This document shows, piece by piece, positions 1,805 to 25,911 of a stretch of 45,960 bases of DNA. Source of the DNA: Gemmatimonadota bacterium (lineage in GTDB: Bacteria; Gemmatimonadota; Gemmatimonadetes; Longimicrobiales; RSA9); NCBI GenBank assembly GCA_039715185.1, contig JBDLIA010000018.1, positions 1-45,960 on the forward strand, read 5' to 3'. Every line of letters starts with the position of its first letter. Position 1 is the stretch's first letter. A model generated the notes under the pieces. It saw only the letters and a list, made by a program, of their open reading frames with translations. It had not been told where the DNA came from and searched no databases. Made by a program: the position numbers and the translations under genes.

Positions 1805-4321
1805 ATGACAAAGAAACGTTCCCGGACCGCGCCGCGCAGAACCACCCGATCGGAACGCCGCGCGGACGCGGCGCGCGGATCCGGTGCCGATGCGCGTGCG
1901 GGCGCGACCGCCGGCGAAGCGCCGGCGATCGGGGCGGGGCTCGCGGCCGCCATCTTCGGCGCGCTCTCGCTGGCGTACTTTCTGTCCGCGCTGCTGCCCG
2001 GGGGGCACCTCTTCGGCAGCGACTACTTCGCGGCGTCCTATCACTACATGGAGTGGCTGTCTGACGAGTTCGCGCGCGGCTCCATTCCCAAGTGGCTGCC
2101 CTACGTCTACGGGGGCATGCCGTGGTTCGCCAACGCGGGCGCGACGTGGTACCCGCCCCGGCTGCTGGGCGACCTCTTCTTGCCGGCGTACAAGCTGTTC
2201 GCGTTCATGTACTTCGTGCAGGTGGCCGCGGCCGGGACCGGCGCCTTCCTGCTCTTCCGCGAGCTGCGCTGCCGCCCCTGGGTCTCGCTGGTGTCCGCGC
2301 TGGGATTCCAGTTCACCGGCCTGATGCTGTCCTTCACCTACGCCGGCCACGACGGGCGCATGATCGTCGCCAGCTTCGCGCCGCTGTTCTTCTTCTTCCT
2401 GCACAGGGGGATCAGAACGGGGGGCCTCGGCGCTTTCGCGGGCGCCTCGGCCACCCTCGGCGCGGCGATGCTGTCCAACCAGATCCAGAGCGTCTACTAC
2501 CTGCTCATCGCGGGGGCGCTGTGGAGCGGCTTCGCGCTCTGGCACATGGGCCACCTGCGCGCGCCGCGGGCGCTCGCCCGGCGGGTCGCCCTGGGACTGG
2601 CAGCCGTGGCGCTCGCGTTCGCCCTGGCCGCGGTGAATTTCCTCCCATTCCTGGGCTACGTGGACGCCTCTCCGCGCGGCGGTGAGGGCCGCGGCCTCGA
2701 GTACGCCACGTCCTGGTCGATGGCGCCGGCCGAGGTGCTGTCCATGGCGGTACCGGAACAGGCCGGCATACTGGGCGACTACCGCGGCGACGCCCCCGGG
2801 GCCAACCCGTTCAAGCTGCACACCGAGTACGTGGGGGCTTTCGCGCTGCTGCTGCTGGCGCTGGGGATGTTCTACAGCCGCCGGGACAAGCGCTGGTGGT
2901 TCTTCCTGGCCCTGGCGCTGTTCGCGCTGAGCGTCGCGCTGGGACGACACACGCCCATCTACCGGCTCTACTACGAGTTCCTGCCTGGCACCAAGCGCTT
3001 CCGCGCGCCCTCCATTTCCTTCTTCCTGGTCGCGTTCTCCCTGGCCGCGATGGCCGCGCTGACGCTGGAGAGGTTGGCCGCGCTGCGGGGACCCGACGCG
3101 CGAGGTCGGTCGGCGCGAAGGGGGACCCGGGGCGAGGCGGGAGGGTCGGGGATGCGAGTGGAGCGAGCGCCCTGGGTCGCGTTGGGCGCCGTCGCTCTGG
3201 CGCTCGCGGGCGCCGCCATCGGACCCGGTTCGTCCTGGGCGGCCGCCAACGCCGGGGCGGGGTGGCTGCGCTTCACCGCCTTCGCCGCCGCGATCGCCGG
3301 GATCCTGTGGCTCTGGATCGGCGCGCGCGCGAGCACCACGCTGGTCACCGTCCTCCTGGGCGTGACGATCGTGGCCGACCTGTGGATCGTCGACCGCAAC
3401 TTCTACGAGATGGCGCAGCCCCCCGGCGTCCACTTCCGCGCCGACGGCGTCGCCGACTTCCTGGCGCAGGAGGCCGCCGGCACTGCGCGCGTGTGGACCC
3501 TGCCGAGCCTGGCGCAGCTGCCCGCCTACCGCGGCCAGACCAACTACCTGATGCGCTTCGGCGTGGAGCAGGTCACGGGCGAGCACGGCAACCAGCTCCA
3601 GCGCTGGAACGAGTACCTCGGCGCGAGCCCGGTGACCTACACGGACCAGCACAACGTCCTGGGCGAACTCCAGCGCTTCGCCACCTCCGGGGGAACCGCG
3701 GCCACGCCCCTGCTCAACGCCGCCAACGTGGGCTACGTCGTGGCCAGCGCGAACGTGGGCCTGCCCTGGCCCGTGGTGTTTCAGGACGGTTCCGGCGTGG
3801 TCTACCAGAACCCCGCCGCGCTGCCCCGCGCCTACCTCGTCCCGGGCGCGCGCGTGACCGGTCCCGACGGCAGCCTCGAGGCGATCAGCGCGCCGGACTG
3901 GGACCCGCGCGCCACGGCTATCCTCGAGATCGAGTCCGGCGTGTCGCTCGCCGACGGAGGCGGGAGCGCGGGCGTCGCGCAGATCCTCGAACATCAGAGC
4001 GACCGCTACCTCCTGCGCGTGGACGCGCGGGCACCGGCGATACTGGTGCTGGCCGAAACGCACTACCCGGACTGGAGGGTCCGCGTGGACGGCGACGACG
4101 CGGAGCTGCTGCGGGTCAACCACGCCCTGATGGGGGTCGCGGTCGAGCCCGGTGAGCATTCCGTGGAGCTCGCGTTCCGGCCCGACGCGTTGTACCGCGG
4201 CCTGTGGATTTCGTTGGCCGCGCTGCTCCTGCTCGTCGCGGTGGGCGCCTGGTCAGCCTGGGCTGCCCGCCGGCCTCGCTCGCCTCGACCCGAGGCGGGG
4301 CCAGACGCGGCCGCCGCGTGA
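1805..4321 (+). CDS. YfhO-family polytopic membrane protein
   Basis: This 838-residue integral membrane protein has a basic N-terminal tail (about residues 1-45), then many hydrophobic segments. A GSDYFAASYHYMEWLSDEF region follows the first segment, and then a PYVYGGMPWFANAGATWYPP loop. Proteins of this type (YfhO, GT-C-like fold) are linked to glycosylation of surface polymers such as teichoic acid in Firmicutes. Around residues 415-455 there is a very polar Arg/Gly-rich loop between membrane segments. The soluble part (about 545-800) is extracytoplasmic by analogy, and a final membrane segment lies near 805-825. The exact substrate is unknown. Context with gmd/rmd and a flippase-like protein suggests surface-glycan assembly. 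The stop overlaps the next gene's GTG start (GTGA). Confidence 0.75.
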   Translation: MTKKRSRTAPRRTTRSERRADAARGSGADARAGATAGEAPAIGAGLAAAIFGALSLAYFLSALLPGGHLFGSDYFAASYHYMEWLSDEFARGSIPKWLPYVYGGMPWFANAGATWYPPRLLGDLFLPAYKLFAFMYFVQVAAAGTGAFLLFRELRCRPWVSLVSALGFQFTGLMLSFTYAGHDGRMIVASFAPLFFFFLHRGIRTGGLGAFAGASATLGAAMLSNQIQSVYYLLIAGALWSGFALWHMGHLRAPRALARRVALGLAAVALAFALAAVNFLPFLGYVDASPRGGEGRGLEYATSWSMAPAEVLSMAVPEQAGILGDYRGDAPGANPFKLHTEYVGAFALLLLALGMFYSRRDKRWWFFLALALFALSVALGRHTPIYRLYYEFLPGTKRFRAPSISFFLVAFSLAAMAALTLERLAALRGPDARGRSARRGTRGEAGGSGMRVERAPWVALGAVALALAGAAIGPGSSWAAANAGAGWLRFTAFAAAIAGILWLWIGARASTTLVTVLLGVTIVADLWIVDRNFYEMAQPPGVHFRADGVADFLAQEAAGTARVWTLPSLAQLPAYRGQTNYLMRFGVEQVTGEHGNQLQRWNEYLGASPVTYTDQHNVLGELQRFATSGGTAATPLLNAANVGYVVASANVGLPWPVVFQDGSGVVYQNPAALPRAYLVPGARVTGPDGSLEAISAPDWDPRATAILEIESGVSLADGGGSAGVAQILEHQSDRYLLRVDARAPAILVLAETHYPDWRVRVDGDDAELLRVNHALMGVAVEPGEHSVELAFRPDALYRGLWISLAALLLLVAVGAWSAWAARRPRSPRPEAGPDAAAA

Positions 4322-5292
4322 CCCGGGAGAGGGCGCCCGGCATCGGGGTCCCCGGAGCGCCTTCGCTCACGCCCCCCAGGGGGCCCCTCGCGCGCGCCCT
4401 CTCCTGGCTGCTCGTGGCGGCCACGCTGGGGTTCGTCGGGTGGGCGTTCGTCCAGGGCTGGCCCCGCGTGGCGGAGCACGATTGGCGCCTGCGGCCGCTC
4501 CTGTTGCTCGCGTCGACGCTGCTCGTGACCGCCGTCATCGTGTCGGCCGCGCTCGTCTGGGGCCGCGTCCTGCGCGGCTTCGGCGCCGACCCGGTTCCCT
4601 CCCCCGCGCTGGTGCGGATCTGGTTTCACAGCAACCTGGCGCGCTACGTCCCGGGCAAGATCTGGCAGTTCGTCGCCGCCGCCGACCTGGCGCGAGCGCG
4701 CGGCCTGTCCCCGGCGCTCATGCTGATTTCGCTCATCGCCTTTATGGGATTCGTCCTCCTGGGCGCGGCGGTCGTGGCCGCCGCCGCCCTCCCGCTACCC
4801 GGCGTGCCCGCCGCCCTGACGGGCGCGCTGGCTGCGGCGCTCGCCGTGGCGCTCAGCCACCCGGCGGTGGTTTCGACGGGGGTCCGGCTGATCCCCAGGC
4901 GACCCGCCGACCTGCGCTGGCGAGCGAGCTGGTCCACGGGCGTCGCCATCCTCGCCCTGTGCGTGATCTACTGGATCGTCTTCGGCGCGGCCTTCGTGCT
5001 CTTCCTGGAGGGAGTCGTGGGGGCGCCCGAAAGCGCATGGGTGGCGCTCGTGGGCGCCAACGCGGCGGCCTACCTGGTGGGCTACGTGGTCATCGTGGCG
5101 CCCGCGGGCCTGGGCTTCCGCGAAGCCACCCTCACGGCGCTGCTGGGGGGCATCCTGGGTTCCGGCCTGGGCGACGAGCGCGCGCTCGCGCTGGGGGCCG
5201 TGGTGGCGCTGGCCAGTCGCCTGTGGATCGTGGTCGCGGAGCTGCTCGGGGCCACCGGGTCCCTGGCGATCGACAGGCCACGGTCCTCCTAG
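4318..5292 (+). CDS. YbhN/AglD-type membrane protein (lysylphosphatidylglycerol synthase TM-region family, UPF0104)
   Basis: The GTG at 4318 overlaps the upstream stop as GTGA and gives 324 residues. The open frame continues upstream to 4204, but that start would lie deep inside the YfhO-family gene. The protein has about eight hydrophobic segments. It carries the family hallmarks in the NLARYVPGKIWQF region and a C-terminal APAGLGFREATLTALL stretch. Relatives are flippase-like or lipid-modifying membrane proteins often found beside glycosyltransferases and polysaccharide genes. The substrate is unknown. Its TAG stop coincides with the left end of a palindromic element (5289-5312). Confidence 0.75.
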   Translation: MTRERAPGIGVPGAPSLTPPRGPLARALSWLLVAATLGFVGWAFVQGWPRVAEHDWRLRPLLLLASTLLVTAVIVSAALVWGRVLRGFGADPVPSPALVRIWFHSNLARYVPGKIWQFVAAADLARARGLSPALMLISLIAFMGFVLLGAAVVAAAALPLPGVPAALTGALAAALAVALSHPAVVSTGVRLIPRRPADLRWRASWSTGVAILALCVIYWIVFGAAFVLFLEGVVGAPESAWVALVGANAAAYLVGYVVIVAPAGLGFREATLTALLGGILGSGLGDERALALGAVVALASRLWIVVAELLGATGSLAIDRPRSS

Positions 5293-5312
5293 TGGACCGT
5301 TACAGTCCACTA
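5289..5312. repeat. Palindromic element, copy D (shortest), between convergent genes
   Basis: An 8-bp perfect inverted repeat, TAGTGGAC (5290-5297) and GTCCACTA (5305-5312), encloses a 7-nt loop. The left half, CTAGTGGACCGTTACAG, matches the left end of the three other copies in the window (CTAGTGTACCGTTGCAG) at all but two positions. The element supplies the TAG stop of the + gene at 5290-5292 and the TAG stop of the - gene at 5310-5312. It could act as a bidirectional hairpin between convergent genes, but no T-tract follows on either strand, so it is not a textbook terminator. Confidence 0.75.
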
Positions 5313-6296
5313 ATCGCGCCGGGGCCTGCGCCGGTCGATCTCGGCGTTCTGCTCGGCGATCAGTTCGGCGAGGATGCCGAAGCCGAACATGAGGAAGCCC
5401 ACCGTCTCTAGCAGGACGACGAGGTAGAGGAAGGGTCGGTAGCCGAACGGCGTCGCTATCTCCAGTAGCCGCAGCGCGATGGTCACCAGGCCCACCGCCA
5501 CGCCCAGGCTCGCCAGCGCGAGGCCGCCGAGCCCGAAGAAGATCATGGGTTTGCGCGCGAAGAACAGGAACACGGACACCGACGCCAGGTCCAGCAACCC
5601 GACCAGGATCCTACCCTTGCCCCCGTACTTGGACTCCCCGTGTCGGCGCGGCAGCAGCTCGATGTCGATTTCGGTCGCGCTGAAGCCGCGGGCGTGGGCG
5701 AGGACGACGAAGAACCGGTGCCAGTCGCGGCGCAGCGCGATCTCGTCCAGGATATCGCGCCGAAAGGCCTTCATTGAGTTCATGTCCGACACCGGCACGT
5801 CGAACAGGGCCCGACTCAGCCGGTTGTAGATCCGCGACACGAAGCCTTTCTCGTAGTGCCCGACTTTGCGGCCCGTCACGATGTCCCAACCCTCGTCGAG
5901 CTTGGCCAGGAAGCGCGGGATCTCCTCCGTGCTGTGCTGGAGGTCGGCGTCGAAGAGCACGAGCCAACGCGCGTCGGTCGCTTCGGCGGCGCTCAGAAGC
6001 GCTTCCGTCTTGCCGAAATTCCGGCGGTGCCGCACCAGACGGAGCGCGGGCCACTCCGCCGCGTGCTCCTCGACCAGCTCCGCGGTGGCGTCGCTCGAGC
6101 CGTCGTCCACCACCACGACCTCTCCGCGCAGTCCGTGTCGGCGGAAGGTCTCCCGCAACTCGCGGATCAGGTCCGGGACGTTGGCCGCCTCATCCAGGGC
6201 CGGCACGACGACGCAGAAGTCGTCCTGGGGCCGCGCTCGTTCCACGGCGCCGTCGGAGCTCACGTCGCCCAGTATGTCTAGGGTGCTATCGTCCAT
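5310..6296 (-). CDS. Family 2 glycosyltransferase, dolichyl/undecaprenyl-phosphate sugar transferase type
   Basis: This 328-residue GT2 enzyme has VVVPALDEAANV near residues 29-40, the DDGSSDAT nucleotide-sugar motif at 64-71 and the metal-binding DADLQ at 116-120. Two hydrophobic segments follow (about 252-278 and 288-312). This layout matches the DPM1/GtrB/ArnC group, which moves a sugar from an NDP donor to a polyprenyl phosphate on the cytoplasmic membrane face. The sugar cannot be read from sequence. It is the last gene of the long - strand run, lies 2 bp after the rpoN stop codon, and converges on the + strand glycan genes. Its TAG stop is formed by the palindromic element. Confidence 0.85.
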   Translation of the reverse strand: MDDSTLDILGDVSSDGAVERARPQDDFCVVVPALDEAANVPDLIRELRETFRRHGLRGEVVVVDDGSSDATAELVEEHAAEWPALRLVRHRRNFGKTEALLSAAEATDARWLVLFDADLQHSTEEIPRFLAKLDEGWDIVTGRKVGHYEKGFVSRIYNRLSRALFDVPVSDMNSMKAFRRDILDEIALRRDWHRFFVVLAHARGFSATEIDIELLPRRHGESKYGGKGRILVGLLDLASVSVFLFFARKPMIFFGLGGLALASLGVAVGLVTIALRLLEIATPFGYRPFLYLVVLLETVGFLMFGFGILAELIAEQNAEIDRRRPRRD

Positions 6297-20393: not shown

Positions 20394-20458
20394 CTAGTGT
20401 ACCGTTGCAGAAGTCCCGTAGGCATTCGGCACACGGAACTTCCGCGCCGGCACACTAG
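20394..20458. repeat. Palindromic element, copy A (65 bp)
   Basis: The element runs from CTAG to CTAG. The outer arms CTAGTGTACCG and CGGCACACTAG pair over 11 bp with one mismatch. Inner arms GCAGAAGTCCC and GGAACTTCCGC pair imperfectly around a loop of about 17 nt. It is nearly identical to copy C, with two substitutions and one indel. It lies between fabF (16 bp before its stop codon on the + coordinate) and dedA, in a gap of 123 bp that is otherwise empty. Confidence 0.9.
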
Positions 20459-21766: not shown

Positions 21767-21805
21767 CTAGTGTACCGTTGCGGAAGTCCCGCGCCGGCAC
21801 ACTAG
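21767..21805. repeat. Palindromic element, copy B (39 bp, lacks inner hairpin arm)
   Basis: The outer arms CTAGTGTACCG and CGGCACACTAG are identical to copies A and C. The middle, TTGCGGAAGTCCCGCGC, lacks the loop and right inner arm, a 27-nt difference from copy C. The right TAG (on the - strand) is the acpP stop codon at 21802-21804. The element is itself flanked by an inverted repeat CCAGGAC (21760-21766) and GTCCTGG (21808-21814). Confidence 0.9.
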
Positions 21806-25741: not shown

Positions 25742-25907
25742 CGACTTACCCGGTGGACGCTTGGTGAAACCAGCCGCGCGACGGCCGATGGCGGCAGGAC
25801 GACATCCGCGCCACCGGTGGACCCGGCCGGCGTGAGGATCGTTTCCTAGTGTACCGTTGCAGAAGTCCCATAGGCATTCGGCCACACGGGACTTCCGCGC
25901 CGGCACA
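25742..25907. other. Largest non-coding gap, between rpmF and plsX
   Basis: This 166-bp gap contains most of palindromic copy C (from 25846). The remaining 100 bp or so hold no ORF or RNA gene. A short CCACCGGTGG palindrome lies near 25811-25820. A promoter for the fab genes could be here but is not clear. Confidence 0.4.
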
Positions 25908-25911
25908 CTAG
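25846..25911. repeat. Palindromic element, copy C (66 bp)
   Basis: The element runs from CTAG to CTAG. The outer 11-bp arms CTAGTGTACCG and CGGCACACTAG have one mismatch. Inner 11-bp arms GCAGAAGTCCC and GGGACTTCCGC have one mismatch and enclose an 18-nt loop. The right TAG on the - strand is the stop codon of rpmF at 25908-25910. It can fold into a long two-step hairpin at the 3' end of the rpmF transcript. Confidence 0.9.

Follow-up and report, generated by a model that had tools for sequence, protein, structure and literature searches.

Two convergent genes in the window, which is the whole 45,960-nucleotide stretch analysed here (contig 18 of a Gemmatimonadota MAG of 3.66 Mb in 252 contigs), take their stop codons from one short palindrome, termed D. 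This palindrome is very probably the remnant of an IS630-type MITE that inserted at the CTAA of two overlapping stops, rebuilt both of them and lost its interior, as would have happened at many other sites of the genome. The features of the junction are the following.

4204..5292, + strand: gene for a YbhN/LPG-synthase-TM-like membrane protein, start codon uncertain, 43% identity to the homologues in two related genera (G010 and G006)
5290..5292, + strand: TAG stop of this gene, made of the target TA and the element's first G
5290..5312, no strand assigned: element D, TAGTGGACCGTTACAGTCCACTA, fused GTGGAC-family MITE ends between two copies of the target TA
5310..5312, - strand: TAG stop of the opposing gene, made of the target TA and the element's first G on that strand
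5310..6296, - strand: family 2 glycosyltransferase gene, PF00535 at 2.9e-26

D comprises 23 bases, with a C before it at 5289 and an A after it at 5313. As the preliminary description had stated, this single element gives TAG to both genes: the + strand reading frame (4204-5292) ends at 5290-5292 with the C-terminus ..IDRPRSS*, and the - strand frame (5310-6296) ends at 5312-5310 with ..IDRRRPRRD*. The accompanying prediction, that removal of D together with one TA would leave the + gene ending in TAA and the - gene in TAG, was reproduced in silico. The joined flanks, CCTCCTAATCG, carry overlapping stops (CTAA), with the + gene ending in ..DRPRSS*(TAA) and the - gene in ..IDRRRPRRD*(TAG), each at the same codon as at present. 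The reading of D as inserted mobile-element sequence on a TA common to two stop codons is thus supported, and the codon at which each gene stops was most likely the same before the insertion. That their stops overlapped at that time, as had been suggested, is also most likely given the CTAA in the joined flanks, although the exact empty site was not seen. With regard to the + strand product, PF03706 (LPG_synthase_TM, YbhN superfamily) matches the G010 homologue at 2e-14 and the window protein at just 0.0035, below the cut-off.

The glycosyltransferase gene is present throughout the family. Its pairing with the YbhN-like gene, adjacent and convergent, is found solely in G010 and G006 among all the family genomes, in which a precise CTAA empty site was sought and not found. 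These two junctions have diverged, with a 21-nt gap in one and a 24-nt overlap in the other, and the palindrome is absent from both. At 25 loci in the named genomes, these relatives being mostly Gemmatimonadota MAGs, a YbhN homologue converging on a glycosyltransferase was not found. The preliminary description had named two outcomes that would speak against an insertion, namely relatives that always carry the same palindrome and genes that are never adjacent elsewhere. Neither is the case, although the comparison did not yield the intact target site.

The genome contains two families of such elements. The GTGTAC family has a full length of 166 bp and ends in TA followed by GTGTACCGTTGCAGAAGTC and, at the other side, GCGCCGGCACAC followed by TA; its 166-bp copies are 96-99% identical to their own consensus. 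The GTGGAC family measures 165 bp and ends correspondingly in TA followed by GTGGACYGTAAC and in GTTACAGTCCAC followed by TA, its 165-bp copies being 93-95% identical to the one at G000:C68. Intermediates at 67-69% identity connect both families. Together they account for 95 distinct sites, among which elements cut at contig ends are possibly counted twice (35 elements with both flanks are unaffected by this), and 42 of them have both ends visible. Many contigs of the MAG (e.g. C12, C35, C42 and C55) break within the 166-bp MITE, which makes the copy number approximate. Lengths of the two-ended elements run from 20 to 167 bp, bar one mispaired case of 212, and include a graded deletion series of 36-96 bp. 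Of 137 ends, 130 have a C directly outside the TA, which indicates CTAG as the pre-insertion target, with its TA now duplicated. A preference of IS630 for the TA of CTAG is already stated in the title of a 1991 paper by Tenzen and Ohtsubo (cited in PMC2170065). A loose pattern of the ends has 92 matches in this genome and 0 to 5 in each of eleven family members, which suggests that the expansion of such ends is recent and local. Three further elements of the window belong here.

20395..20457, no strand assigned: copy A, 63-bp GTGTAC-family deletion derivative, off a stop (the neighbouring - strand gene ends 17 bases past its right end)
21768..21804, no strand assigned: copy B, 37-bp GTGTAC-family derivative, whose right end is the TAG (21802-21804, - strand) of an acyl carrier protein gene (PF00550, 2e-16)
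25847..25910, no strand assigned: copy C, 64-bp GTGTAC-family derivative, whose right end is the TAG (25908-25910, - strand) of the gene for ribosomal protein L32 (PF01783, 1.5e-26)

D had been listed as a copy alongside A to C, an assignment that is corrected here: A to C are members of the sister GTGTAC family, whereas D belongs to the GTGGAC family and has its own parents of about 165 bp. It joins 11 bases from the start of the G000:C68 parent to 14 from its end, with 2 bases shared, and as the fused ends of this family it is probably a deletion scar formed in place. The 23-bp form recurs on C1 and C10, and C3, C5 and C85 carry near variants of it. The exact intact form is uncommon, since a phylum-wide search of 395 genomes for a palindrome of CTAGTGNAC and GTNCACTAG around a middle of 4-10 bases returned a single site, in the genome studied here. 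That D is a chance palindrome at a gene junction, with no transposon link, might be argued from one site taken alone without empty-site proof, but is refuted by the near-identical copies elsewhere in the genome and the full-length parents, and TAGTGGACCGTTACAGTCCACTA occurred in 0 of 100 shuffles with up to 3 mismatches allowed, which makes it a negligible option.

The elements of both families are assigned to the IS630-type MITEs: they are dispersed, present in many copies and devoid of coding capacity, they duplicate TA with a preference for CTAG, and they have terminal inverted repeats in common (ends GTGTACTGTTACAAAAGTC) with an IS630-family element of G099, a member of another genus of the same order. 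This element, of about 1.15 kb, has the ends CTAGTGTACTGTTACAAAAGTC and GACTTTAGAGGCGGTACACTAG and encodes an IS630-family transposase with DDE_3 (3.9e-19) and HTH domains. A profile search for the PF13358 transposase found none in the MITE-bearing genome itself, and an IS630-family transposase may have mobilised the MITEs, to judge from the sequences. The G099 transposase gene (L229:1902-3050, C52) has CAC TAG as its final codons, its stop being completed by the duplicated target TA and a flanking G, so its normal gene end depends on a CTAG target. Other arrangements were also seen: at L005, L010, L011 and L002, elements stand head to tail with one common TA, the CTAG at an element end having been reused as target. 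Additionally, positions 26-139 of the GTGGAC-family MITE, its interior, are matched by dozens of differently ended repeats from other families of the order. The one-contig relative G012, which belongs to another family, has such repeats at C1:3738300-3739560 (L260), where they form head-to-tail arrays with 171-bp spacing (3738512-3739320), and at C1:207172-207734; one of them adjoins rpmF.

The coincidence with stop codons is a genome-wide rule of these elements and D is no one-off. Element loci were sampled as stretches of genome, and genes were called with a home-made codon-usage score that misses small genes such as those for L32 and the acyl carrier protein. Where a gene meets an element end, the end is exactly its TAG stop in 53 of 91 cases and is read into in one, the remaining genes stopping earlier. 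Under a null of random gene cutting, in which the three frames are equally frequent, 53 against 1 has a p of about 2e-24. Both flanks were callable for 35 elements; of these, 26 coincide with one stop or more, and five, D being one of them, with two. The acyl carrier protein and L32 have normal C-termini, their stops being supplied by copies B and C, respectively. Much of this bias is accounted for by the rarity of the target, as CTAG occurs seldom at the genome's 70% GC and often serves as a TAG stop: among the unoccupied CTAG sites of the sampled DNA, 22 lie at stops and 39 within genes, and 40 are intergenic. Elements nevertheless lie on stops more often (74%) than free CTAG outside genes does (22/62, 35%; p 3e-4), so target rarity alone may not suffice. 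The same pattern is displayed in G012 by a different element, which ends in TA followed by GCAGCCCGTGGA; of its 15 stop-side ends, 10 are exact stops and 0 are read into, and by eye it supplies the stops of rpmF and rpsI. The stop of rpmF is hence supplied by two different TA-inserting elements in two families of the order (L260; window 25908-25910).

The course of events proposed for D builds on its sequence, the element families, the target flanks, the stop coincidence and a relative's IS630 element whose ends match, all of them observed, from which we infer mobilisation by such a transposase, the order of the steps, the deletion by hairpin slippage and the purging. An IS630-family transposase would have placed a GTGGAC MITE of about 165 bp in the CTAA formed by the two overlapping convergent stops, at its TA. 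The TA would have been duplicated and, since G is the first base of the element from either side, TA plus G would have restored TAG to each gene at the same codon, leaving both proteins unchanged. Finally, the interior may have been deleted by slippage at the base of the single long hairpin into which the MITE folds, leaving the fused 23-bp ends. Full-length parents of both families are predicted to form one hairpin each, of about -98 kcal/mol. Many sites would have become alike because CTAG is rare and commonly a stop, and because insertions within genes or before promoters would have been purged.

An alternative that is judged improbable holds that the palindromes are kept for a function at gene ends, as hairpins at the mRNA 3' end that separate converging transcripts or protect mRNA 3' ends. 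It draws on the distribution of the elements, as convergent gaps make up 25 of 54 gaps with an element and 11 of 155 without (p 1e-9), an excess beyond that predicted from the two stops of each convergent gap (p 3e-8). It also draws on predicted RNA folding: D forms a stem of 8 bp with a 7-nt loop on the + strand and of 10 pairs, G-U allowed, on the - strand, with stable hairpins of -10.1 and -13.2 kcal/mol, respectively. However, the commonest scar, of 20 bp, folds weakly (-4.2, z -1.35), and both relatives with the same gene pair do without D. A search for intrinsic terminators (a G+C-rich stem followed by a T-run) found 0 sites in 5000-5600 on either strand, and Rfam gave 0 matches in the window. 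The earlier proposal that the stem of D separates the two transcripts is therefore unsupported, its hairpin having no T-run on either strand. Moreover, the element-less stops are mainly TGA (191/280), and a convergent bias would also result from the purging of polar insertions in operons; purging from operons and promoters would be the simplest reason for it.

The idea that the palindromes of 20-23 bp moved and inserted in their present short form appears similarly unlikely. Ten identical 20-bp copies of the GTGTAC family at distinct sites and several 23-bp copies, all between TA repeats, would fit it, as would a 25-bp version in another genus (L222). Against this, the sequences are the fused ends of 165-bp parents in the same genome, and deletions of graded size (36-96 bp) are present. 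A deletion from one GCA triplet to another, both close to the base of the hairpin, would yield the 20-bp scar, and this junction is one of just three that have at least 3 shared bases and leave a product of at most 26 bp. In a microhomology scan of all the short derivatives, most were found to carry point changes too. In addition, ISY100, which duplicates TA, was judged by its authors to need inverted repeats of 24 bp as the likely minimum (PMC2170065), which suggests that the 20-23-bp forms are deletion scars and not mobile as such. At the junction studied here, the sequences indicate that a MITE of about 165 bp probably inserted and then lost its interior, and that the 23-bp unit itself did not insert.

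Among known systems, the elements resemble IS630 / Tc1-mariner transposons and their MITEs (IS630, ISY100, Nezha, RUP) in the duplication of TA with preference for CTAG, in inverted repeats with internal deletions and in their ends, which a relative's element with a DDE_3 transposase has too. They differ in that the transposase was not found in the genome, in that many copies are cut to 20-23-bp scars, and in the tendency, documented here, to lie on stop codons and in convergent gaps. The very small mobile repeats of cyanobacteria, described by Elhai et al. in 2008, are reportedly also tiny and dispersed, of about 21-27 bp; in the present genome, however, longer parents have been identified, and deletion within these is taken to account for the tiny forms. 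GTAG REPs are small palindromes located mostly between convergent or co-directional genes, and their termini often lend a TAG stop to flanking genes (PMC3733652), as happens here. REPs nevertheless have a one-sided tag, GTAG or CGTC, and a RAYT link, whereas the elements here show no such tag, their ends being symmetrical and flanked by CTAG..CTAG with the TA duplicated. The CTAG target, the anatomy of MITEs and small palindromes that lend TAG (the GTAG REPs) are thus already published; for IS630-type MITEs concentrated on stop codons, no report was found in the open-access literature.

Since a G beside the duplicated TA rebuilds TAG on both strands, harmless landing may itself have been selected. 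It is tentatively suggested, as a speculation that may well prove wrong, that elements inserting at TA generally find a safe haven in the stop codons of GC-rich genomes, that selection for harmless landing there, and especially on overlapping convergent stops, would have shaped their ends and target preference, and that this governs the accumulation of MITEs and their scars phylum-wide. The finding provides a simple, quantified reason for the presence of small transposons at exact gene ends: CTAG targets are few and many of them are stop codons, and the stop is restored by the first base of the element. It also advises against taking 3'-end palindromes of this kind for terminators without a test, accounts for 'micro-repeats' of 20-23 bp as scars left by deletions in fold-back MITEs, and implies that many TAG stops in such genomes are partly transposon sequence.
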